A stretch of DNA of 64,000 nucleotides from Siphonodentalium dalli (lineage: Eukaryota; Mollusca; Scaphopoda; Gadilida; Siphonodentaliidae): the NCBI GenBank assembly GCA_032622095.1, contig CP136065.1, forward strand, positions 35,622,732 through 35,686,731. The letters are read 5' to 3'. The translations under genes were made by a program, and so were the position numbers. Below the pieces are notes generated by a model. It was not told where the DNA came from, did no database searches, and saw only the letters and a list, made by a program, of their open reading frames with translations. Numbering within the stretch: the stretch's first letter is position 1; every line of letters begins with the position of its first letter. Positions 1 to 52,440 of the stretch are shown here, piece after piece.

Positions 1-445
1 TTCCAATCTGCAGCACACCAGTTTGCGAGTCAATGACACCTCCAGCATCCTTAATAAAATTCCACCCTATAAGAGCCGGAAATGCTACACAGTTAGCAAC
101 AAGAAACATATAATCAAACTGTTTAGCACCAACTGATATTGAGATCCTTAATTCACCCAGTAATTCAACAGGTTGATCATTAACAGATGTAGCAGATATT
201 TTGATTGGAATAAGTTTTCTAGATCTCAATATCTCATGACTCTTCCTAAATTTGTCACTGATTATACACACTGAAGAACCTGTATCCACTAATACCTTGG
301 TTTGTACCCCATCAATAGTGACCAATATCAGAGAAGATAGACTCTTTAAGTCTGACACGTCGCCCAATTGTTTAACTTCAGAGGCCGGCATTTCGGGCTC
401 AATCCCAGCCACTAATAGTTTAAATCTTGACCTGAATCTCTTGAA
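1..445 (-). CDS. retropepsin-like protease at start of pol frame (partial)
   Basis: This frame is open from 445 to the window edge and lies -1 relative to gag. It carries the aspartic protease active-site motif VDTGSSV (Asp codon at 284-286), followed by a hydrophobic ALIGWNFI segment that resembles the second retropepsin signature. The protease would cleave the Gag-Pol polyprotein as a dimer in the virus-like particle. There is no separate start codon in a sensible place. Expression is therefore expected through ribosomal frameshifting from gag, which it overlaps between 412 and 445. Reverse transcriptase and the rest of pol are outside the window. Confidence 0.85.
362..424 (-). promoter_or_regulatory. 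candidate -1 ribosomal frameshift signal (slippery site + pseudoknot)
   Basis: On the minus strand the heptamer TTTAAAC (424-418) is phased T TTA AAC in the gag frame, the canonical X XXY YYZ arrangement. The gag stop TAG follows one codon later (414-412). After a 7-nt spacer, GGCTGG (410-405) can pair with CCGGCC (388-383). The loop bases GCCCGA (398-393) can pair with TTGGGC (367-362), giving an H-type pseudoknot of two 6-bp stems. A -1 slip here enters the protease frame. The sequence elements are directly visible; function is inferred. Confidence 0.75.
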
Positions 446-1341
446 TCATATCGCTGTCTGTTTAAATCTTGACCTGAATCTCTTGAATCATATTGCTGTC
501 TGTTTTGGGGGTAAAATCCACGTGAATATGAACCTCGACCACGACCTTGACCTCGCGGGTGTGAGCTACCTCTCTGAACTCCCGTACGACCCCTTTGTTT
601 TGAGACAGTGGGACATTCACGATATAAATGACCAATACCACGACAACCGTAACAGGTGACCCCCTCCATAGCAGAGAATCTCCCTCTAGATTGTGGCTGA
701 CCCCGATCTGAAACACTAAGTGCAGCTATCTGCTCTTGCATTCGGTCGAGCTGACTTTGAAGAGCAACAAATTCAGTACTTGCCTCATGGGAGTTCCCAT
801 GAGCTTGGATCATATTTACTTCTGCAATGTGTTTTTTCTCAATACTATTGCGAACTTCCAATTTCGCAGCCAATTCTAATGCATTTTGAACAGATTTTGG
901 CTCTTTCCTCCGAATTTTCATACCTATTTCCCCAATACCGGCAAGGAACCGAGTTAAAACTACATCCTCTTTTGCCTCCACATTGTATTTGGGATAAGCT
1001 TTTGTCACTAATCTCCGCAATTCACCAATATACGCTGCTAGATTCTCACCTGTTTTCCGAGATCGATTTGTCAGCTCAGCTCGAAATGCATCCACGAAAG
1101 CCACCGAAGAGTAAGCCTCTATAAAAACCTCAATTACCCTATCCCATTCTGTTTTCTTTTCCTTTGGTATGGCTCGAAAAACTGAAAATGCTTCATCACC
1201 CAGTAATGTAGGGAATATTTCTAAATATTTCTTTGGTGCATACACTTGGGCCCAGTATTCAAACCGTTCCAACCACCCTTCAAAGTCATCACCCTGTCGC
1301 CCAAGAAATTTATCAGGAGGAGGTGCAACAAATGATGCCAT
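412..1341 (-). CDS. gag: retrotransposon Gag with CCHC zinc knuckle
   Basis: This 309-aa protein has a helical Retrotrans_gag-type core (about residues 10-170, with segments such as WLERFEYWAQVYAP and NLAAYIGELRRLV). A short coiled-coil-like stretch follows, then one CCHC knuckle, CYGCRGIGHLYREC, and an RG/Q-rich basic tail. It would assemble the particle and bind element RNA. The start ATG at 1341 lies 2 nt after the stop codon of the upstream SGNH-like ORF (TAA-AT-ATG), so the two ORFs are nearly fused. The C-terminus contains a 42-bp in-frame tandem duplication that also duplicates the slippery heptamer. Confidence 0.92.
   Translation of the reverse strand: MASFVAPPPDKFLGRQGDDFEGWLERFEYWAQVYAPKKYLEIFPTLLGDEAFSVFRAIPKEKKTEWDRVIEVFIEAYSSVAFVDAFRAELTNRSRKTGENLAAYIGELRRLVTKAYPKYNVEAKEDVVLTRFLAGIGEIGMKIRRKEPKSVQNALELAAKLEVRNSIEKKHIAEVNMIQAHGNSHEASTEFVALQSQLDRMQEQIAALSVSDRGQPQSRGRFSAMEGVTCYGCRGIGHLYRECPTVSKQRGRTGVQRGSSHPRGQGRGRGSYSRGFYPQNRQQYDSRDSGQDLNRQRYDSRDSGQDLNY
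418..501 (-). repeat. 42-bp tandem duplication at gag 3' end, duplicating the slippery heptamer
   Basis: Two 42-bp copies (418-459 and 460-501) differ at a single base. The unit is 14 codons, so gag stays in frame. Both copies contain TTTAAAC in the frameshift-competent phase. A -1 slip at the upstream copy (466-460) would meet TGA at 448-446 before reaching the protease. Only the downstream copy leads into pol. Confidence 0.9.
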
Positions 1342-1343
1342 AT

Positions 1344-2192
1344 TTATTTATGTCTCTTGAAACAAATAAAGTCAACACTACGATCTGACTCTGAATCTGA
1401 ATCAGAACTTGATAAGCACTCAATGTCTGACTCAAAAAGGTTAATAATATATTGGCCAATATAACTACATCCAAATCCTGAAAATTTTGCAAAAAAATTC
1501 ACTTCGGCTCTAAATGCCTGAATCAAAACATTGAACCACTGCTTCTTCACCTCAGATACTGCATGCAGGCCATCATAAAGGTTACCGTACATATATCTCT
1601 TTTTACTTCGCAAACGCTTGTTTTTGACTCTCTTTATAATTTGTTGATCCCACGATATGGTCCAACACCCAGTGTAGGACTGCTTGGTGCAGTTATGTAA
1701 TTTAATCAATGAATTGATCTCAACAATATTCCGGTTAATTGTTTTTTGGTATCGAATAACGTCGGATGACTTCAAACCAAACTCAGACAGGACAATGTTA
1801 TATGTAGAATAATATTTCTCAAAACAGCAAGTTGGAATGTTCACAAACCCAACTAACGCAGTTGGAAATATTTTCTTTATAGCCGATTCAAATTCTACCA
1901 ACCGATTGAAAACTGTTTCAGCGGAATTGTCATTAGGGCGAATGAACTGTCCTCTTTTATCCAAGAAGTCATTGATGCCGGCCGCTATTTTGACAATAAC
2001 CTGTGTATCGGATGATTTCTCCCACGATGACAATATTACAACTGTCTCATCTTTCAACAGCTCAATGGACGCGCCTCGAATAATTTTGTATTCAATATTT
2101 ATATCTTTCGGCTGTGGATATTTGTCAAAATTATTTGCACGAGAATCGGCAGCAAAGAAACATCTTCCAACTCCAGGCACCATGATTATCAC
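1344..2192 (-). CDS. SGNH/GDSL-hydrolase-like ORF upstream of gag
   Basis: This 282-aa protein does not match any standard LTR-retrotransposon product that I recognise. It does show the four blocks of the SGNH hydrolase fold in order. They are ADS near the N-terminus (Ser17, after a hydrophobic strand), RGAS (Gly40), GIND (Asn74) and DGLH (Asp207/His210), with a C-terminal helix after the last block. A complete Ser-Gly-Asn-His set suggests an esterase or acetylhydrolase-like protein. The substrate is unknown. A serine/aspartate-rich acidic stretch lies near residues 260-271. The stop codon is 2 nt before the gag ATG, so both ORFs probably share one transcript. Catalysis is inferred from motif spacing only. 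Confidence 0.65.
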   Translation of the reverse strand: MIIMVPGVGRCFFAADSRANNFDKYPQPKDINIEYKIIRGASIELLKDETVVILSSWEKSSDTQVIVKIAAGINDFLDKRGQFIRPNDNSAETVFNRLVEFESAIKKIFPTALVGFVNIPTCCFEKYYSTYNIVLSEFGLKSSDVIRYQKTINRNIVEINSLIKLHNCTKQSYTGCWTISWDQQIIKRVKNKRLRSKKRYMYGNLYDGLHAVSEVKKQWFNVLIQAFRAEVNFFAKFSGFGCSYIGQYIINLFESDIECLSSSDSDSESDRSVDFICFKRHK

Positions 2193-3564: not shown

Positions 3565-6351
3565 TTATATGTAATACAGAATTTCTTTCCAATGTTTGAA
3601 AAGATAAGATTCATAAAATAAATCGGAATTAATGATTGCATGCAAAATTGTATTTTCAGATTCAGTCACACGTTCTCTCAGACCATACACACTCTTTCTT
3701 ATCAACATAGGAACAGAACTCACAACATCCCTGGCATACATCCCACTTGCGCTACATCTCCATTCATACCCCATAAACTTCCTATAGGCATTGTTATAAC
3801 ATACAATTAATTTGCGGTAACTGCGCTGGGTGAAATTTTCCCACAGAGTACAACAATATAATGATGAAATATAAGCATGAAAAAGATGGCGTTTTACATC
3901 AAATGAACACTTGTAAAACTTTTTCATGAGGATATTGGAACGGGAACAAATTGATCTATATTGCCTCAAAATATCATCATCATCAATAAGATCGTCTCTG
4001 AGAATATGTCCAAGGTATTTATAGGCGGGAACAAACTTAAGTTCTCTACCCATGAGAAAAAGTTTTGGAAAGGTCGTGAGGCGTAGGGATTTGGGTATGA
4101 ACGCCATCCCTACTGTTTTTGTGCAATTATATACCAAATTTATGGGTAAAGCTTCGGCTTCACATATTCTCACGAGACGACGAAGTCCCTCTAGAGAGGG
4201 TGCAAGTAGACACATGTCATCAGCATAGCATAAATGGTTTACTCTCTTACCACCTATCACACATCCACTCTCGCTTTCATTCAACCTCTCACTTATACCA
4301 TTTATGTACACATTAAACAAATAAGGACTGAGAACCCCGCCTTGTCGAACTCCACTCGTTGGCCGGAATGGAGGCGAGTGCGATCCTCCCCATCTGACGT
4401 TGTATTCCTGATTTCCAAACCAATTACTGAGGACATTGATGACTGAGGTCGGTATACCGCGTTTCCACAATAATTGGGTTAATGTTCTGTGATTGACTCT
4501 ATCAAATGCTTTGCTGGCGTCAAGAAAGCAGACGAAAGCAGGGGTATTCTTCGATATATAGTGATTTATTGTCTCTTTGAGTGCCAGAATGCAACTGTCA
4601 GTGGAATGTCCGCTCTTGAAACCGAATTGATTATCGGTTGTATGGAGGCGATGAGAAATTTTCTGCAGAACAACTTTTTCGAATATTTTTGATATGAGTG
4701 TTGATAGAGCTATAGGTCGATAATTTTCAGATGACGAGATGTTAGCATTCTTATTCTTTAAAATCGGAACAAGCGTTACTTTCAGCAGTTTTGGTGGAAG
4801 GTGACCGGTTTCCAGTATTTTGTTGAACAGAAACATGAGGCATGTATTGATTCTTTCGTCACAGTATTTAAGGTGTTCAGCTGCTAACCCATCTGGGCCT
4901 CGTGATTTACCCGATTTTAATGATTTTATTGATGTTTCGATTTCCTTCTCTGTGATGAAAATTCGTTTTTCAGGTTCGTCCTCGTATGTGTGAAGATCGT
5001 GCTGTTGAACGGTGTTACAAAATATGTTCTGGAAGTGTTCTCCCCAATACAATGTAATATCGGATTCGCCACTTTTCCCGTCTATGCAGTTAACATGTCC
5101 ACCGGAGTTACCACCTGTTACTGATTTCCAAAATTCCTTATAGTTTTTGTTCGTAAAATTATCCGCTAATTTATCCGCCTTCATTTGTTCTTTTCTTGAT
5201 TTGCAATTTCTCAGGGCTGATTTGAATATTTGTCTGCTCCTCCTCATGCAGTCGTATATATATCCAAATCTTGGTCGCTTCATTTTGACCCAATTTAGGA
5301 AATAGGTTCTTGCCTTCTCGTGTAAGTGACTGACGTATGTATTCCAACCTGGTGTTGAATAGCGGTGATTTTTGCGTCTTCTGACATCGATGATGCTTCT
5401 GTTTGCGGCCTCTGACAAAGCATATACAATTTCTTCATATGTATGATTTATCAATGCTTTTGCATCCTTTCCTTGTGATTCCTGATTGACGATGTCACTA
5501 TTTATCTTTTTGAGATAGTTTCGGCTCGTACGACGATAAGTTTCTAACTGAGAAGTTCCGGCGCGTGACCAATCTATTTTTTCCTGTTGATTGTTGTTTT
5601 CAATTGACGCAATATTTGTTGGAAGGATGTCTGTCTTCAGCGAAACAACAAGCGGGAAATGATCAGAAGTAATGTAATCATGGAGTATTTCAATCGATGA
5701 TATCGCTGTATCTACTGATGCTGTACACACACAATGGTCAAGCCAAGACACCGTGCCATGCGCAGAACTTAAGAACGTGAACGAATCTGGAGAATAGCCT
5801 AGCAATTTGATGTCCGATATATGTAGTGACGAATCCCGACAATACTCATTCAGCTCCGCCATATTCCCAGTATTCCTGATTGCACATGCATTGAAATCAC
5901 CCATGACTATCATATTACTTGTACTCGCCTCGTTCATGATCGCTTCGATTTTACCGAGGTAGTCAACGTATAACTCCGCATTGACTTCGTCATCAACCGG
6001 AAGGTAAACACATAGTATCAGCAATCTATATGTTGAATCTTTTATTTCAAGGCCAACTATTCTCGGGTCCCCATATGAAACAAACCGTACTTTATCGGCA
6101 AGCGTTTTTCTCCACATAAATGCCGTTCCACCATATGGTCTTCCACTAAGAATCTTACTGTCAGAATCAATGGCTGATTCACCACAAGCTTCAAATTCGT
6201 TGTTTATTGAACGCAATTTTTCCAACTCATTCTTCAACAGCCAATGTTCCTGGAGAAGTACTATGTCACAATTTTCTGAAAATTTTCGTACCTCAACATC
6301 CGATGTTTTCACAGACTTGCAGTTGTATGATGCGATTCTCAAGGCTCCCAT
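3565..6351 (-). CDS. LINE ORF2: APE-type endonuclease + reverse transcriptase
   Basis: This 928-aa protein has an apurinic-type endonuclease at residues 1-240: Asn10 in SYNC, Glu35 in LLQEHW, GDFNAC near 151-156, SWLDHC and a terminal SDHFP. The reverse transcriptase spans about 470-790: YRPIAL, QFGFKSGHSTD, FLDASKAFDRVNH, GVRQGGVLSPYLFN and the catalytic YADD at 709-712. It makes nicked-target-primed cDNA of the element RNA. There is no RNase H, and no stop or frameshift. The start is the first Met, directly before the endonuclease. The clade was not assigned (jockey/CR1/RTE-like range). Confidence 0.95.
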   Translation of the reverse strand: MGALRIASYNCKSVKTSDVEVRKFSENCDIVLLQEHWLLKNELEKLRSINNEFEACGESAIDSDSKILSGRPYGGTAFMWRKTLADKVRFVSYGDPRIVGLEIKDSTYRLLILCVYLPVDDEVNAELYVDYLGKIEAIMNEASTSNMIVMGDFNACAIRNTGNMAELNEYCRDSSLHISDIKLLGYSPDSFTFLSSAHGTVSWLDHCVCTASVDTAISSIEILHDYITSDHFPLVVSLKTDILPTNIASIENNNQQEKIDWSRAGTSQLETYRRTSRNYLKKINSDIVNQESQGKDAKALINHTYEEIVYALSEAANRSIIDVRRRKNHRYSTPGWNTYVSHLHEKARTYFLNWVKMKRPRFGYIYDCMRRSRQIFKSALRNCKSRKEQMKADKLADNFTNKNYKEFWKSVTGGNSGGHVNCIDGKSGESDITLYWGEHFQNIFCNTVQQHDLHTYEDEPEKRIFITEKEIETSIKSLKSGKSRGPDGLAAEHLKYCDERINTCLMFLFNKILETGHLPPKLLKVTLVPILKNKNANISSSENYRPIALSTLISKIFEKVVLQKISHRLHTTDNQFGFKSGHSTDSCILALKETINHYISKNTPAFVCFLDASKAFDRVNHRTLTQLLWKRGIPTSVINVLSNWFGNQEYNVRWGGSHSPPFRPTSGVRQGGVLSPYLFNVYINGISERLNESESGCVIGGKRVNHLCYADDMCLLAPSLEGLRRLVRICEAEALPINLVYNCTKTVGMAFIPKSLRLTTFPKLFLMGRELKFVPAYKYLGHILRDDLIDDDDILRQYRSICSRSNILMKKFYKCSFDVKRHLFHAYISSLYCCTLWENFTQRSYRKLIVCYNNAYRKFMGYEWRCSASGMYARDVVSSVPMLIRKSVYGLRERVTESENTILHAIINSDLFYESYLFKHWKEILYYI

Positions 6352-6379
6352 TTCCTATTTTTTTATTTTTTTTTTTTAT

Positions 6380-7738
6380 TTACGACCACGGTTCCCTAGT
6401 CGCGTGTTCCCAATCATTTCTGCCACCAGATCTTCGTTCAAAGAATTGTCGAACAAGAGCATTTTTTGGCCACAAAGTAGCATCCATTATTCTCTTCATT
6501 TCTTCGCGATCTTCAACTTGAAGTTTGAACGATGAATACGTATCAAATTTGGTAATCAATTTGGAACATTTCATCACCTGTGTATGAAACGTATCGTCAA
6601 CAAAAGATTTTAAGTCGGCCTCTGTTGTTTCCGGCGCAAGTCTCGAGACGAATATTAGACCAGGAGGACTGGTATTCACAGTTTTCAGCTTAGAATTACT
6701 CGACGTTCCTATCACTGGAGGTTTCTTAGGTTTCTTTCTCTGGACAGTTTGAAAACCATCGTCACGCAGGGTCTCAGCATAGGTTGGCACACGAACGGAG
6801 GCGGTATGACTATTTGAGACGTATGGTGTTCTCGTCTCGACTTCTGCAGAAAAGTCTGTTTCAATGTTCTGATTAGTGTTCGGGAAACGGGACGATGCTG
6901 TGACATTTCCCATAACATACTGACTTGGTGGTGTTATGTGTTCGATTCTGGGTTGTCGAGTGTTCTTATGCATATCAAGTTTCTTGTTCTCGTGAAACGT
7001 TTTCTCCTTTATCAGATCGCGTGTAAGATTTTCTTCTCTGACCGATTTTATGGCCGTACTGATATCGACGGACAGTTCATTTCTGAGCGTTTTTACAAGA
7101 TCCTCTTTCACTACTGTCAGCACATTCTTTTTGATTTCTTCACATACTTCTGCACTAATAACAGTCTTCAAATCACTGTTTTGTGATTTCACGGAAGATA
7201 TATCTTTCAGAAGAGTTGAAATATCCACATGATCAACATCTATAGGAGGCAATTTACTCAAATCATACGCCACGAACAGTGGCAAGTCATCCATATCCGT
7301 TTCATGGAGCAACGTGATTATGTCTTTGAGATTACTCATCGTTTTATCTTGTCCCTTTCGCTTTATACATCTTGACTTGCTTTGAGCTAAATCGAACAGG
7401 AGCATCTTAGCTTCTTCAATTTCGGAATCATCAAAATTTTCTATACACAGCTTAAGAATCACATTTGTTGTTAACTTAACAAATTTGTTAACCATAAAGC
7501 AGAGAAGTTCATTTATAACAATCGGCTTCGTGTCATCCTTTTGCGCTGATCTCTCGCCTGTTTTGCGGGCGACCACTGATTTCACGAGTGTTCCAGCTCT
7601 TGTCTCCACTGTCGTCGCATCTTTCACTTCAGTCGACAATATACCAAACCTTTTTCTCTCACATGGTGCGCATAAGTACTGATCACCTTGTGTGAATTTC
7701 ACGCCGGTTCCAGAACCACAATCTTCACAGGCCGGCAT
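6380..7738 (-). CDS. LINE ORF1: zinc-finger, coiled-coil and RRM-like nucleic-acid-binding protein
   Basis: This 452-aa protein starts with a four-cysteine zinc-finger-like motif (C4-x2-C7-x15-C23-x2-C26, PHD/zinc-ribbon-like). A long helical middle part with heptad-like runs follows (about 90-240), then a low-complexity linker. The C-terminal domain (about 350-435) resembles an RRM: GLIFVSRLAPETTEADLKSF ... FKLQVEDREEMK ... WPKNALVRQF. It would coat the element RNA as the ORF1 partner. ORF2 begins 28 nt downstream across an A-rich spacer, so ORF2 translation probably involves reinitiation. Assignment is by position and domains. Confidence 0.85.
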   Translation of the reverse strand: MPACEDCGSGTGVKFTQGDQYLCAPCERKRFGILSTEVKDATTVETRAGTLVKSVVARKTGERSAQKDDTKPIVINELLCFMVNKFVKLTTNVILKLCIENFDDSEIEEAKMLLFDLAQSKSRCIKRKGQDKTMSNLKDIITLLHETDMDDLPLFVAYDLSKLPPIDVDHVDISTLLKDISSVKSQNSDLKTVISAEVCEEIKKNVLTVVKEDLVKTLRNELSVDISTAIKSVREENLTRDLIKEKTFHENKKLDMHKNTRQPRIEHITPPSQYVMGNVTASSRFPNTNQNIETDFSAEVETRTPYVSNSHTASVRVPTYAETLRDDGFQTVQRKKPKKPPVIGTSSNSKLKTVNTSPPGLIFVSRLAPETTEADLKSFVDDTFHTQVMKCSKLITKFDTYSSFKLQVEDREEMKRIMDATLWPKNALVRQFFERRSGGRNDWEHATREPWS

Positions 7739-7790
7739 CGTCTAAGCAGGTTGGTAAGACTCCGACTCTCTCGAGCCCCGACAACGTCTT

Positions 7791-30260: not shown

Positions 30261-30565
30261 TTCGTTATCATTATATTGACTGTTCAGCATATAATTATTA
30301 ACACCTCCCAAGTTGAACTACAGTGTCATTGACACTTTCATTTGGATTTTTTAGTGGGTTCCTGGCCCCTTTATGCTGTAATTGCGGAACTTAGGAATTT
30401 GGTTTGTGCCGTCAGTCCAGTCCTCCCGACAATTCAGGCACATTTCTTACTCAATAGTTCGAATAAAACTTTCAGGGCTCCCTAACTAGGAGTAAATATC
30501 AGTTTGAAATGGCATGAAACACTCGCATTACTTCAAATCAATTTATAAATTCTCGTTATATTGGA

Positions 30566-33345
30566 ATATCATTGTGACTACGTGTACACAGAGAAACCAA
30601 AACGAATATCACTGTGACTACATGGGTCTACATGCACACAGAGAAACCAAAACGAATATCACTGTGACTACATGCACACAGAGAAACCAAAACGAATATC
30701 ACTGTGACTACATGTACACAGAGAAACCAAAACGAATATCACTGTGACTACATGGGTCTACATGTACACAGAGAAAACAAAACGAATACCACTGTGACTA
30801 CATGGGTTTACATGTACACAGAGAAACCAAAATGAATATCACTGTGACTACATGGGTCTACATGCACACAGAGAAACCAAAACGAACATCACTGTGACTA
30901 CATGGGTCTACATGTACACAGAGAAACCAAAACGAATATCACTGTGACTACATGGGTCTACATGCACACAGAGAAACCAAAACGAATATCACTGTGACTA
31001 CATGGGTCTACATGTACACAGAGAAACCAAAACGAATATCACTGTGACTACATGGGTCTACATGCACACAGAGAAACCAAAACGAATATCACTATGACTA
31101 CATGCACACAGAGAAAACAAAACGAATATCACTGTGACTACATTCACACAGAGAAACCAAAACGAATATCACTGTGACTACATGGGTCTACATGTACACA
31201 GAGAAACCAAAACGAATACCACTGTGACTACATGCACACAGAGAAACCAAAACGAATATCATTGTGACTACATGCACACAGAGAAACCATAACGAATATC
31301 ACTGTGACTACATGCACACAGAGAAACCAAAACGAATATCACTGTGACTACATGCACACAGAGAAACCAAAACGAATATCACTGTGACTACATGCACACA
31401 GGGAAACCAAAACGAATATCACAATGACTACATGGGTCTACATGCACACAGAGAAACCAAAACGAATATCACTGTGACTACATGGGTCTACATGTACACA
31501 GAAAAACCAAAACGAATATCACTGTGACTACATGCACACAGAGAAACCAAAACGAATATCACTGTGACTACATGCACACAGGGAAACCAAAACGAATATC
31601 ACTGTGACTACATGGGTCTACATGTACACAGAGAAACCAAAACGAATATCACTGTGACTACATGCACACAGGGAAACCAAAACGAATATCACAATGACTA
31701 CATGGGTCTACATGCACACAGAGAAACCAAAACGAATATCACTGTGACTACATGGGTCTACATGCACACAGAGAAACCAAAACGAATATCACTGTGACTA
31801 CATGCACACAGAGAAACCAAAACGAATATCACGGTGACTACATGGGTCTACATGTACACAGAGAAACCAAAACGAATATCATTGTGACTACATGCACACA
31901 GAGAAACCATAACGAATATCACTGTGACTACATGCACACAGAGAAACCAAAACGAATATCACTGTGACTACATGCACACAGAGAAACCAAAACGAATATC
32001 ACTGTGACTACATGCACACAGGGAAACCAAAACGAATATCACAATGACTACATGGGTCTACATGCACACAGAGAAACCAAAACGAATATCACTGTGACTA
32101 CATGGGTCTACATGTACACAGAGAAACCAAAACGAATATCACTGTGACTACATGCACACAGAGAAACCAAAACGAATATCACTGTGACTACATGCACACA
32201 GGGAAACCAAAACGAATATCACTGTGACTACATGGGTCTACATGTACACAGAGAAACCAAAACGAATATCACTGTGACTACATGCACACAGGGAAACCAA
32301 AACGAATATCACAATGACTACATGGGTCTACATGCACACAGAGAAACCAAAACGAATATCACTGTGACTACATGGGTCTACATGCACACAGAGAAACCAA
32401 AACGAATATCACTGTGACTACATGCACACAGAGAAACCAAAACGAATATCACGGTGACTACATGGGTCTACATGTACACAGAGAAACCAAAACGAATATC
32501 ACTGTGACTACATGCACACAGAGAAACCAAAACGAATATCACTGTGACTACATGCACACAGGGAAACCAAAACGAATATCACTGTGACTACATGCACACA
32601 GAGAAACCAAAACGAATATCACTGTGACTACATGCACACAGAGAAACCAAAACGAATATCACTGTGACTACATGCACACAGAGAAACCAAAACGAATATC
32701 ACTGTGACTACATGCACACAGAGACACCAAAACGAATATCACTGTGACTACATGGATCTACATGTACACAGAGAAACCAAAACGAATATCACTGTGACTA
32801 CATGCACACAGAGAAACCAAAACGAATATCACTGTGACTACATGCACACAGAGAAACCAAAACGAATATCACAATGACTACATGGGTCTACATGTACACA
32901 GAGAAACAAAAACGAATATCACTGTGACTACATGCACACAGATAAACCAAAACGAATATCACTGTGACTACATGCACACAGAGAAACCAAAACGAATATC
33001 ACTGTGACTACATGGGTCTACATGTACACAGAGAAACCAAAACGAATATCACTGTAACTACATGCACACAGAAACCAAAACGAATATCACTGTGACTACA
33101 TGGGTCTACATGCACACAGATAAACCAAAACGAATATCACTGTGACTACATTCACACAGAGAAACCAAAACGAATATCACTGTGACTACATGGGTCTACA
33201 TGTACACAGAGAAACCAAAACGAATATCACTGTGACTACATGCACACAGAGAAACCAAAACGAATATCACAATGACTACATGGGTCTACATGCACACAGA
33301 GAAACCAAAACGAATATCACTGTGACTACATGCACACAGAGAAAC
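30566..33345 (+). repeat. minisatellite 1: alternating 40- and 50-bp units
   Basis: About 60 units. The 40-bp unit carries CACACAGAGAAACCAAAACG and AATATCACTGTGACTACATG. The 50-bp form has an extra CATGGGTCTA. The 620 bp at 31,241-31,860 are repeated at 31,861-32,480 with a single visible difference, so the array recently grew by unequal exchange. Unit B keeps only a stump near 51.57-51.60 kb. Short ORFs inside are not genes. Confidence 0.95.
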
Positions 33346-33429
33346 CAAAAAGAAGAACCAAACATACATGTTCTTCTTCGCGAAGAACTAAATGAAGACA
33401 CAAATAAAAAACGAAACATGTTGGTTCTT

Positions 33430-36090
33430 CACGATGAACGGAGTTAAAGAACCAAATCATGTACACAACACACATTCTGGTCCAACATGGAACCAAACAA
33501 AACATGTACACAACACACATTCTGGTCCCACGTGGAACCAAACAAAACATGTACACAACACACATTCTGGTCCCACATGGAACCAAACAATTCATGTACA
33601 CAACACACATTCTGGTCCCACATGGAACCAAACAAATCATGTACACAACACACCTTCTGGTCCCACATGGAACCAAACAAATCAAGTACACAACACACAT
33701 TCTGGTCCCACATGGAACCAAACAAATCAAGTACACAACACACATTCTGGTCCCACATGGAACCAAACAAATCGTGTACACAACACACATTCTGGTTCCA
33801 CATGGAACCAAACAAATCAAGTACACAATACACATTCTGGTTCCACGCGGAACCAAACAAATCAAGTAGACAACACACATTCTGGTTCCACGCGGAACCA
33901 AACAAATCATGTACACAACACACATTCTGGTCCCACATGGAACCAAACAAATCAAGTACTCAGCACACATTCTGGTTCCACGCGGAACCAAACAAATCAA
34001 GTACACAACACACATTCTGGTTCCACGCGGAACCAAACAATTCATGTACACAACACACATTCTGGTTCCACATGGAACCAAACAAATCAAGTACACAACA
34101 CACATTCTGGTCCCACATGGAACCAAACAAATCAAGTACACAACACACATTCTGGTTCCACATGGAACCGAACAAATCATGTACACAACACACATTCTGG
34201 TCCCACGTGGAACCGAACAAATCATGTACACAACACACATTCTGGTCCCACATGGAACCGAACAAATCATGTACAAAACACACATTCTGGTCCCACATGG
34301 AACCAAACAAATCATGTACACAACACACATTCTGGTTCCACATGGAACCGAACAAATCATGTACACAACACACATTCTGGTTCCACATGGAACCAAACAA
34401 ATGAAGTACACAACACACATTCTGGTTCCACATGGAACCAAACAAATCATGTACACAACACATATTCTGGTCCCACATGGAACCAAACAAATCATGTACA
34501 CAACACACATTCTGGTCCCACATGGAACCAAACAAATCGTGTACACAACACACATTCAAATCAAGTACACAACACACATTCTGGTTCCACGCGGAACCAA
34601 ACAATTCATGTACACAACACACATTCTGGTCCCACATGGAACCAAACAAATCATGTACACAACACACATTCTGGTCCCACATGGAACCAAACAAATCAAG
34701 TACACAACACACATTCTGGTTCACATGGAACCAAACAAATCATGTACACAACACACATTCTGGTCCACATGGAACCAAACAAATCGTGTACACAACACAC
34801 ATTCTGGTTCCACATGGAACCAAACTAATCAAGTACACAACACACATTCTGGTCCCACATGGAACCAAACAAATCAAGTACACAACACACATCCTGGTTC
34901 CACATGGAACCGAACAAATCATGTACACAACACACATTCTGGTCCCACATGGAACCGAACAAATCATGTACACAACACACATTCTGGTCCCACATGGAAC
35001 CAAACAAATCATGTACACAACACACATTCTGGTTCCACATGGAACCGAACAAATCATGCACACAACACACATTCTGGTTCCACATGGAACCAAACAAATG
35101 AAGTACACAACACACATTCTGGTTCCACATGGAACCAAACAAATCATGTACACAACACATATTCTGGTCCCACATGGAACCAAACAAATCATGTACACAA
35201 CACACATTCTGGTCCCACGCGGAACCAAACAAATCATGCACACAACACCCATTCTGGTCCCACATGGAACCAAACAAATCAAGTACACAACACACATTCT
35301 GGTTCCACATGGAACCGAACAAATCATGTACACAACACACATTCTGGTCCCACATGGAACCGAACAAATCATGTACACAACACACATTCTGGTCCCACAT
35401 GGAACCAAACAAATCATGTACACAACACACATTCTGGTTCCACATGGAACCGAACAAATCATATACACAACACACATTCTGGTTCCACATGGAACCAAAC
35501 AAATCATGTACACAACACACATTCTGGTTCCACAAGGAACCAAACAAATCATGTACACAACACATATTCTGGTTCCACCTGGAACCAAACATATCATGTA
35601 CACAACACACATTCTGGTCCACATGGAACCAAACAAATCATGTACACAACACACATTCTGGTCCCACATGGAACCAAACAAATCATGTACACAACACACA
35701 TTCTGGTCCCACATGGAACCAAACAAATGAAGTACACAACACACATTCTGTTCCCACATGGAACCAAACAAATGCAGTACACAACACACATTCTGGTCCC
35801 ACATGGAACCAAACAAATCATGTACACAACACACATTCTGGTCCCACATAGAACCAAACAAATGAAGTACACAACACACATTATGGTTCCTCAAGGAACC
35901 AAACAAATCAAGTACACAACACACATTCTGGTCCCACATGGAACCAAACAAATCATATACACAACGCACATTCTGGTTCCACAAGGAACCAAACTAATCA
36001 AGTACACAACACGCATTCTGGTCCCACATGGAACCAAACAAATCATGTACACAACACACATTCTGGTCCCACATGGAACCAAACTTGTTT
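33430..36090 (+). repeat. minisatellite 2: 45-bp units, about 59 copies
   Basis: Each unit contains ACACAACACACATTCTGGT followed by an imperfect palindrome GGTTCCACATGGAACC (or GGTCCC variant) and AAACAAATCATGT. Because 45 is a multiple of 3, most of the six frames stay open for hundreds of codons (up to 740), none preferred. A larger repeat of about 700 bp is visible. The array is preceded by the palindrome GTTCTTCGCGAAGAAC near 33.37 kb. Unit B has about 16 copies. Confidence 0.95.
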
Positions 36091-51714: not shown

Positions 51715-52440
51715 AAGAACCAAATCATGTACACAACACACATTCTTGTTCCACATGGAACCAAACAAACCGTGTACACAACACACATTCTGGTCCCACA
51801 TGGAACCAAACAAATCAAGCACACAACACACATTCTGGTCCCACGTGGAACCAAACAAATCAAGTACACAACACACATTCTGGTCCCACATGGAACCGAA
51901 CAAATCAAGTACGCAACAAACATTCTGGTCCCACACGGAACAAAACAATCATGTACACAACACACATTCTGGTCCCACATGGAACCAAACAAATCATGTA
52001 CACAACACACATTCTGGCTCCACATGGAACCAAACAAATCAAGTACACAACACACATTCTGGTTCCACATGGAACCAAACAAATCATGTACACAACACAC
52101 ATTCTGGCTCCACATGGAACCAAACAAATCAAGTACACAACACACATTCTGGTCCCACATGGAACCAAACAAATCAAGTACACAACACACATTCTGGTCC
52201 CACATGGAACCAAACAAATCAAGTACACAACACACATTCTGGTCCCACATGGAACAAAAACAGAATCATGTACACAACACACATTCTGGTCCCACATGGA
52301 ACCAAATCAAGTACACAACACACATTCTGGTCCCAGGTGGAACCAAACAAATCATGTACACAGCACACATTCTGGTCCCACATGGAACCAAACAAATCAT
52401 GTACACAACACACATTCTGGTCCCACGTGGAACCAAACTT
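51715..52440 (+). repeat. minisatellite 2 in unit B (45-bp units, about 16 copies)
   Basis: Same unit as 33.43-36.09 kb, preceded by the same GTTCTTCGCGAAGAAC palindrome (about 51.64 kb). ORFs of up to 316 aa across it are spurious. Confidence 0.95.

Follow-up and report, generated by a model that had tools for sequence, protein, structure and literature searches.

A predicted -1 frameshift cassette and its duplicated slippery heptamer at the gag-pol junction of a young Ty3/gypsy element in Siphonodentalium dalli

How is pol expressed from an LTR retrotransposon of the scaphopod Siphonodentalium dalli whose gag ends with two slippery heptamers, and does the second heptamer take part in it? 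The window, the whole stretch of 64,000 nt that was analysed (contig CP136065.1, positions 35,622,732 to 35,686,731), contains part of this element. An initial annotation of the window had described a -1 frameshift cassette at the gag-pol junction and had interpreted the duplicate heptamer as a decoy that could lower or tune the Gag-Pol ratio. Here, the junction is compared with its copies and relatives in the host genome (2.23 Gb, 9 contigs).

The element lies on the minus strand at the left end of the window and extends leftward beyond it. The location of all features on the minus strand was absent from the initial annotation and is established here; the window coordinates of the element given below refer to this strand. 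The whole element spans C5:35618456-35625346, 6891 bp from LTR to LTR, and its LTRs (C5:35625121-35625346 and 35618456-35618681) start with TG, end with CA and are identical at 181 of the 182 compared bases. The 5' LTR (2390-2615, 226 bp, TGTAATG...CATTACA) is adjoined by TGGTGGCAGCGGTGGGAT (2371-2388), which by this position is the likely primer-binding site; no tRNA genes were found within the window. The gag ORF (412-1341, 309 aa; ATG 1339-1341, stop TAG 412-414) encodes a capsid domain (PF03732, 24.5 bits, cut-off 24.1) and one CCHC-like knuckle scoring under the Pfam cut-off (zf-CCHC, 15.7 against 20.8). The pol frame, -1 relative to gag, starts with the protease and runs on leftward out of the window; among the matches listed, it spans 1393 codons in 7 of 67 genome matches. 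The examined part of the reverse transcriptase matches RVT_1 (5.3e-35), and its best match among solved structures is the Ty3 reverse transcriptase (1.2e-41), with weaker matches to retroviral enzymes. The element is therefore placed in Ty3/gypsy. No plasmid relatives of gag were found outside the host genome, and the scanned viral contigs contained no relatives of gag, the protease or ORF0, an extra ORF preceding gag.

Three related families are present in the host genome, namely F1, to which the window's element belongs, and F2 and F3, which are 57-58% and about 52% identical to it in the protease. In eight F1 elements of 6.87-6.89 kb, each of the two LTRs closely resembles that at the 5' end of the window's element. 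Target repeats of 4 bp are legible in five of these eight full-length copies (TATA for the window's element), the other three being ambiguous or having damaged LTR ends. Since their 5' flanks share no match with one another, the eight young elements represent separate insertions.

The 3' end of gag reads GAT TTA AAC TAT TAG, and the -1 reading, TTT AAA CTA TTA, carries the protease. The initial annotation was right about the phasing of TTTAAAC as T TTA AAC (418-424) with the gag stop one codon on, about the 7-nt spacer (TATTAGT, 411-417, which includes that stop) and about a retropepsin frame open in -1, which occupies 2-445 and matches PF13975 with 29.9 bits (cut-off 28.2). Two TTTAAAC and no other in-phase heptamers of the form X XXY YYZ occur in the window's gag (310 codons), and a phased TTTAAAC within the last 30 gag codons was obtained in 7 of 2000 codon shuffles. 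This downstream heptamer is the likely working frameshift site. It is found at the junction in F1, F2 and F3, and in most copies the gag stop follows one codon later. Exceptions occur among the seven F1 copies that carry a single heptamer unit: four of them keep TTTAAAC, one has TTTAAAT and two (L014, L016) have an altered heptamer, and L011 and L012 use TAA as the gag stop. The six F2 copies have TTTAAAC (four) or TTTAAAT (two); one F2 copy (L063/L045) reads TTTAAAT and has lost the gag stop, and L080 keeps an F2-like TTTAAAC that is followed by unrelated DNA.

Downstream of the spacer, an H-type pseudoknot can be formed. Stem 1 consists of GGCUGG/CCGGCC, extended by AUU/AAU beyond one G-G mismatch (5' arm 401-410, 3' arm 383-392), and stem 2 of six base pairs, GCCCGA/UUGGGC (5' arm 393-398, 3' arm 362-367). 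The initial annotation had proposed two stems of 6 bp each; this stands for stem 2, while stem 1 spans 10 positions. One layout is common to the three families: the spacer is 7 nt long, stem 1 has 10 positions, the first loop measures 2 nt and stem 2 comprises 6 bp, its 5' arm running directly into the 3' arm of stem 1 so that no base is left unpaired where the stems meet. The last loop is 15 nt in F1 and 12 nt in F2 and F3. With one sequence taken per family and stacking energy as the only term of the null, equally stable pseudoknot stems were reached in 1 of 300 (F1), 1 of 300 (F2) and 0 of 300 (F3) dinucleotide shuffles. Stem 1 is also present in the minimum-free-energy fold, in which the hairpin region is mildly more stable than its shuffles (z -1.37, 19/200).

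The family junctions align without gaps through stem 1, which allowed the pairing to be compared between copies, as had been proposed along with the initial annotation. The alignment (A1) contains 16 sequences, rows identical over the stretch being omitted (L023, L062 and nine other two-heptamer F1 copies). In stem 1, 97.9% of cells are paired and both sides have changed in four of the nine counted pairs. The covariation score of the whole structure is 0.317, compared with at most 0.102 when the structure is slid along the alignment, and this score was reached by none of 500 shuffles. The numbers of paired cells and of double-change cells likewise beat all 500 shuffles; two further measures did less well, with 86 of 500 shuffles having at least as many doubly changed pairs (4) and 493 of 500 at least as many pair types (11). 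F1 and F2 share the G-G mismatch, and F3 pairs at 10 of 10 positions in the register of F1 and F2, including the G-G position. In stem 2, 88.5% of cells are paired with one-sided changes only, and the stem is broken in several old copies; because double changes are absent, stem 2 rests on conservation. A conserved structure is located 7 nt past the downstream heptamer, within the 5-9 nt expected of a stimulator, with stem 2 conserved by maintained pairs only. Codon usage points in the same direction: identical residues use the same codon more often in the knot than in the rest of the compared region (10/13 against 28/67, 6/7 against 26/67 and 10/10 against 35/75; one-sided Fisher p of 0.021, 0.023 and 0.001), for a knot region that was picked after being seen. 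In the old single-unit copies L014 and L016, in which the heptamer has decayed, stem 1 is still fully paired except for the shared G-G.

Because the three families share the heptamer, the H-type pseudoknot, covariation in stem 1 and the codon constraint, -1 programmed frameshifting is well supported as the way in which this junction would make Gag-Pol; slippage itself and its level we infer from these features. Ribosomes translating gag would meet U UUA AAC (424-418) while the pseudoknot 7 nt further on blocks the mRNA entrance. Some of them would slip back by one base to UUU AAA and read protease and reverse transcriptase as Gag-Pol, and the remaining ribosomes would terminate one codon on at UAG and release Gag. 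Production of pol by stop readthrough or by internal initiation instead of frameshifting is highly improbable. An ATG in the pol frame does sit 11 codons past the slip-site codon (E-P-E-M) and could serve such a route, but the 0 frame past the UAG soon stops, so that readthrough cannot yield pol, and the conservation of heptamer, phase and pseudoknot together with the compensatory changes in stem 1 speaks against both routes.

The second heptamer has a different history. As described in the initial annotation, a 42-bp unit is duplicated in frame as a direct tandem repeat (418-459 downstream and 460-501 upstream, 98% identical), which places a second TTTAAAC at 460-466 in the same phase. The comparison of other copies that had been suggested for this feature divides them into one-unit and two-unit forms. 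Copy counts are at least-values from the best-scoring candidates of the genome search. The junction could be read in 17 F1 copies. Ten of these have two heptamers (L001-L009, L015) and seven, which are more diverged, have a single unit (L010-L014, L016, L017), whereas each of the ten F2 and F3 copies checked (six and four) has one heptamer over a stretch that takes in the junction and the 150 nt ahead of it. Only the ten two-unit F1 copies were thus seen to carry the upstream heptamer. Outside these counts are L018/L019 (one F1 copy with the junction cut off), L020-L022 (parts of counted copies), L030 (the same as L024), L063/L045, L064-L069, L071-L075 and L077-L080. A tree calculated without the duplicated block (719 columns) splits the one-unit from the two-unit F1 group with a support of 0.841, which probably reflects one origin of the duplication, and no independent duplication was found among the 17 F1 copies. 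By this comparison of sequences, the duplication is the derived state among the sampled copies.

With regard to age, the sampled recent insertions have two heptamers and the datable single-unit ones are old. Both heptamers are present in all eight young full-length F1 elements, and the single-unit copies with paired LTRs show 91.8% (L012) and 91.3% (L011) LTR identity. The duplication is not brand new, since the two-unit copy L009 is itself older (92.0% over 176 bases of its LTR pair). By eye, the repeat boundaries have AAAC in common, which is part of CCAAAAC in one case and of the heptamer in the other, and the duplication may stem from a template switch between these two tetramers during reverse transcription. 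A third LTR is located near L011 (C6:230686343-230695219; L092, L093, L094) and is 99.5% identical to one of its two LTRs, which suggests that the site was later rearranged or locally duplicated.

The gag-pol recoding signal of this young Ty3/gypsy element is very probably the downstream heptamer with its pseudoknot, the upstream heptamer being a passenger of the duplication. After its tandem duplication, which probably occurred once, the upstream heptamer would slip rarely, as it lacks a suitably positioned stimulator. The earlier suggestion that it acts as a decoy, sending ribosomes to a dead end and so lowering or tuning Gag-Pol, draws on the identity and phase of the heptamer and in the fate of a slip there, which was correctly predicted to stop before pol: the -1 reading from this site is FKQTAI-stop, six codons, ending at a TGA (446-448). 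The heptamer is also intact in all ten two-unit copies, though these are too similar to test selection. However, a slippery sequence by itself is insufficient for efficient shifting, according to the part of PMC3835772 considered here, and no stimulatory structure was found so placed as to make the upstream heptamer a second functional slip site. The interval 5-9 nt past the heptamer has none, the pseudoknot starts as far as 49 nt from it, and the 66 nt that follow the heptamer, including the sequence in between, fold no better than shuffles (z +0.30). The heptamer is moreover absent in the seven single-unit F1 copies and the ten checked F2 and F3 copies, and young elements carry it with no visible cost. 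We consequently found the decoy or tuner role not supported, and regard it as improbable.

Somewhat less improbable, but still unlikely, is that the duplication was selected for the longer Gag tail, in which QRYDSRDSGQDLN is repeated, with the heptamer hitch-hiking. The duplication is in frame and occurs in eight of eight young elements, as such selection would have it, but hitch-hiking in one successful source copy gives the same pattern and an independent duplication was seen in none of the 17 F1 copies. What the eight young elements do indicate, by having both heptamers, is that the duplication caused no noticeable hindrance to spread. With no suitably placed stimulator, and with a slip product that would differ from normal Gag in its tail alone, the upstream heptamer is most likely a passenger. 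Its influence on the ratio of Gag to Gag-Pol would be small at most, and perhaps it adds a trace of altered Gag.

The frameshift cassette is of an already known kind. In the available part of a survey of animal LTR elements (PMC5009743), pol lies in the -1 frame in 28 of 51, many of which have heptamers, and U_UUA_AAC is listed among the shiftiest. The junction resembles the -1 gag-pol junctions described there in having a heptamer near the gag end, protease and pol in -1 and a stop soon after; it differs from those that this part of the survey covers in that a pseudoknot backed by covariation is present in three families and in that one subfamily has duplicated the heptamer. By the definition in the portion of PMC3835772 considered, the pseudoknot is of the CPK-1 type known from several nidoviruses, which it resembles in the UUUAAAC, a stem 1 of about 10-11 and a stem 2 of 6-7 bp, a first loop of 1-2 nt and abutting stems. 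In contrast, the spacer is 7 nt here and 5-6 nt in most of the table rows covered, and stem 1 has a G-G mismatch in two families; the likeness is structural and no kinship of sequence is claimed (PMC3835772). In the open-licence literature, searched mostly through titles and abstracts, no title or abstract on a duplicated heptamer at a gag-pol junction was found, which is weak evidence. The locus offers a recently mobile element whose frameshift cassette is supported by covariation, and the duplicated heptamer is a curiosity that comes with a natural control: because one- and two-heptamer versions of F1 share one genome, an unstimulated second slip site is measurable with native sequences.

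The more unusual part of the element, perhaps of greater interest to retroelement specialists than the duplication, is the combination of a splice donor-like sequence in the LTR with an ORF ahead of gag. This ORF0 (1344-2183, 279 aa; TAA 1344-1346) is conserved across the three families, with 45-54% identity in the F2 and F3 rows, and is open from end to end in two F3 copies. It contains the blocks ADSRANNF, GINDLL and YDGLHA (in the window and in L042, L044, L045, L054 and L060), of which ADSRA, GIND and DGLH resemble what we take to be the catalytic blocks of SGNH hydrolases. Searches of Pfam, PHROGs, NCBIfam and solved structures gave no significant match for ORF0, and because neither profiles nor structures matched significantly, the SGNH label is unproven. 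LTR elements of bdelloid rotifers with a GDSL/SGNH ORF3, as far as they are described in the part of PMC5408684 considered, also have an extra ORF, whereas the extra ORF here precedes gag and its SGNH nature is unproven.

The ORF0 stop and the gag ATG (TAAATATGG; 1339-1356, minus strand) are separated by 2 nt in F1 and F2 and by 7 nt in F3. A UGGGA motif is a lead for termination-reinitiation; it is absent from the last ~100 bases before the ORF0 stop in those F1 and F3 sequences that were inspected. The donor-like GTGAGT in the LTR (2417-2422) is conserved in the three families and lies 31-34 nt before the primer-binding site in five loci from three families where both were found; in L054 and L045 the donor is present and an exact primer-binding match is absent. 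An acceptor-like CAG|GT (AG at 2196-2197) directly precedes ORF0 in one F1, one F3 and two F2 sequences, and donor and acceptor occur as a pair in the window and in L042, L044, L054, L056 and L060. Splicing of the predicted intron would take out the primer-binding site, together with four upstream ATGs in the case of F1. F2 ORF0 has no obvious start codon after the acceptor, and the predicted splice supplies an in-frame start from the LTR (MAESDNCVKVTNYGKC...) in all three loci examined, which joins displaced by one base do not. A further acceptor-like sequence, TTTGTTTCAAG, is located just ahead of the ORF0 stop and gag start (1339-1356, minus strand) and could give a gag mRNA.

From these signals we tentatively propose a layered control of expression, as a reading that is possible and falls short of probable. 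Splicing from the LTR donor to the ORF0 acceptor would yield mRNAs without a primer-binding site, which would be used for translation only. ORF0, possibly an SGNH-type enzyme, would be read first, and Gag, which starts 2 nt past the ORF0 stop, would be made either through reinitiation or from another spliced RNA. Gag-Pol would follow by -1 frameshifting, and the second heptamer of the young subfamily would add a minor Gag isoform.

Other repeats were observed in the window and near the copies. A LINE-like element (3565-7741, minus strand) encodes an endonuclease and reverse transcriptase in a frame of 929 aa, with a second long frame (453 aa) ahead of it. Long tandem arrays occur at 30564-36084 and 51721-52438, and one 45-bp unit (CAAATCATGTACACAACACACATTCTGGTCCCACATGGAACCAAA) is found again some 15 kb away. 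Lastly, a near-palindromic short repeat (ATTCTCTTATATATGCGAGTCGACC...) interrupts or flanks L064, L076, L080 and the 5' flank of the C3 copy L037, and looks like a small inverted-repeat transposon.
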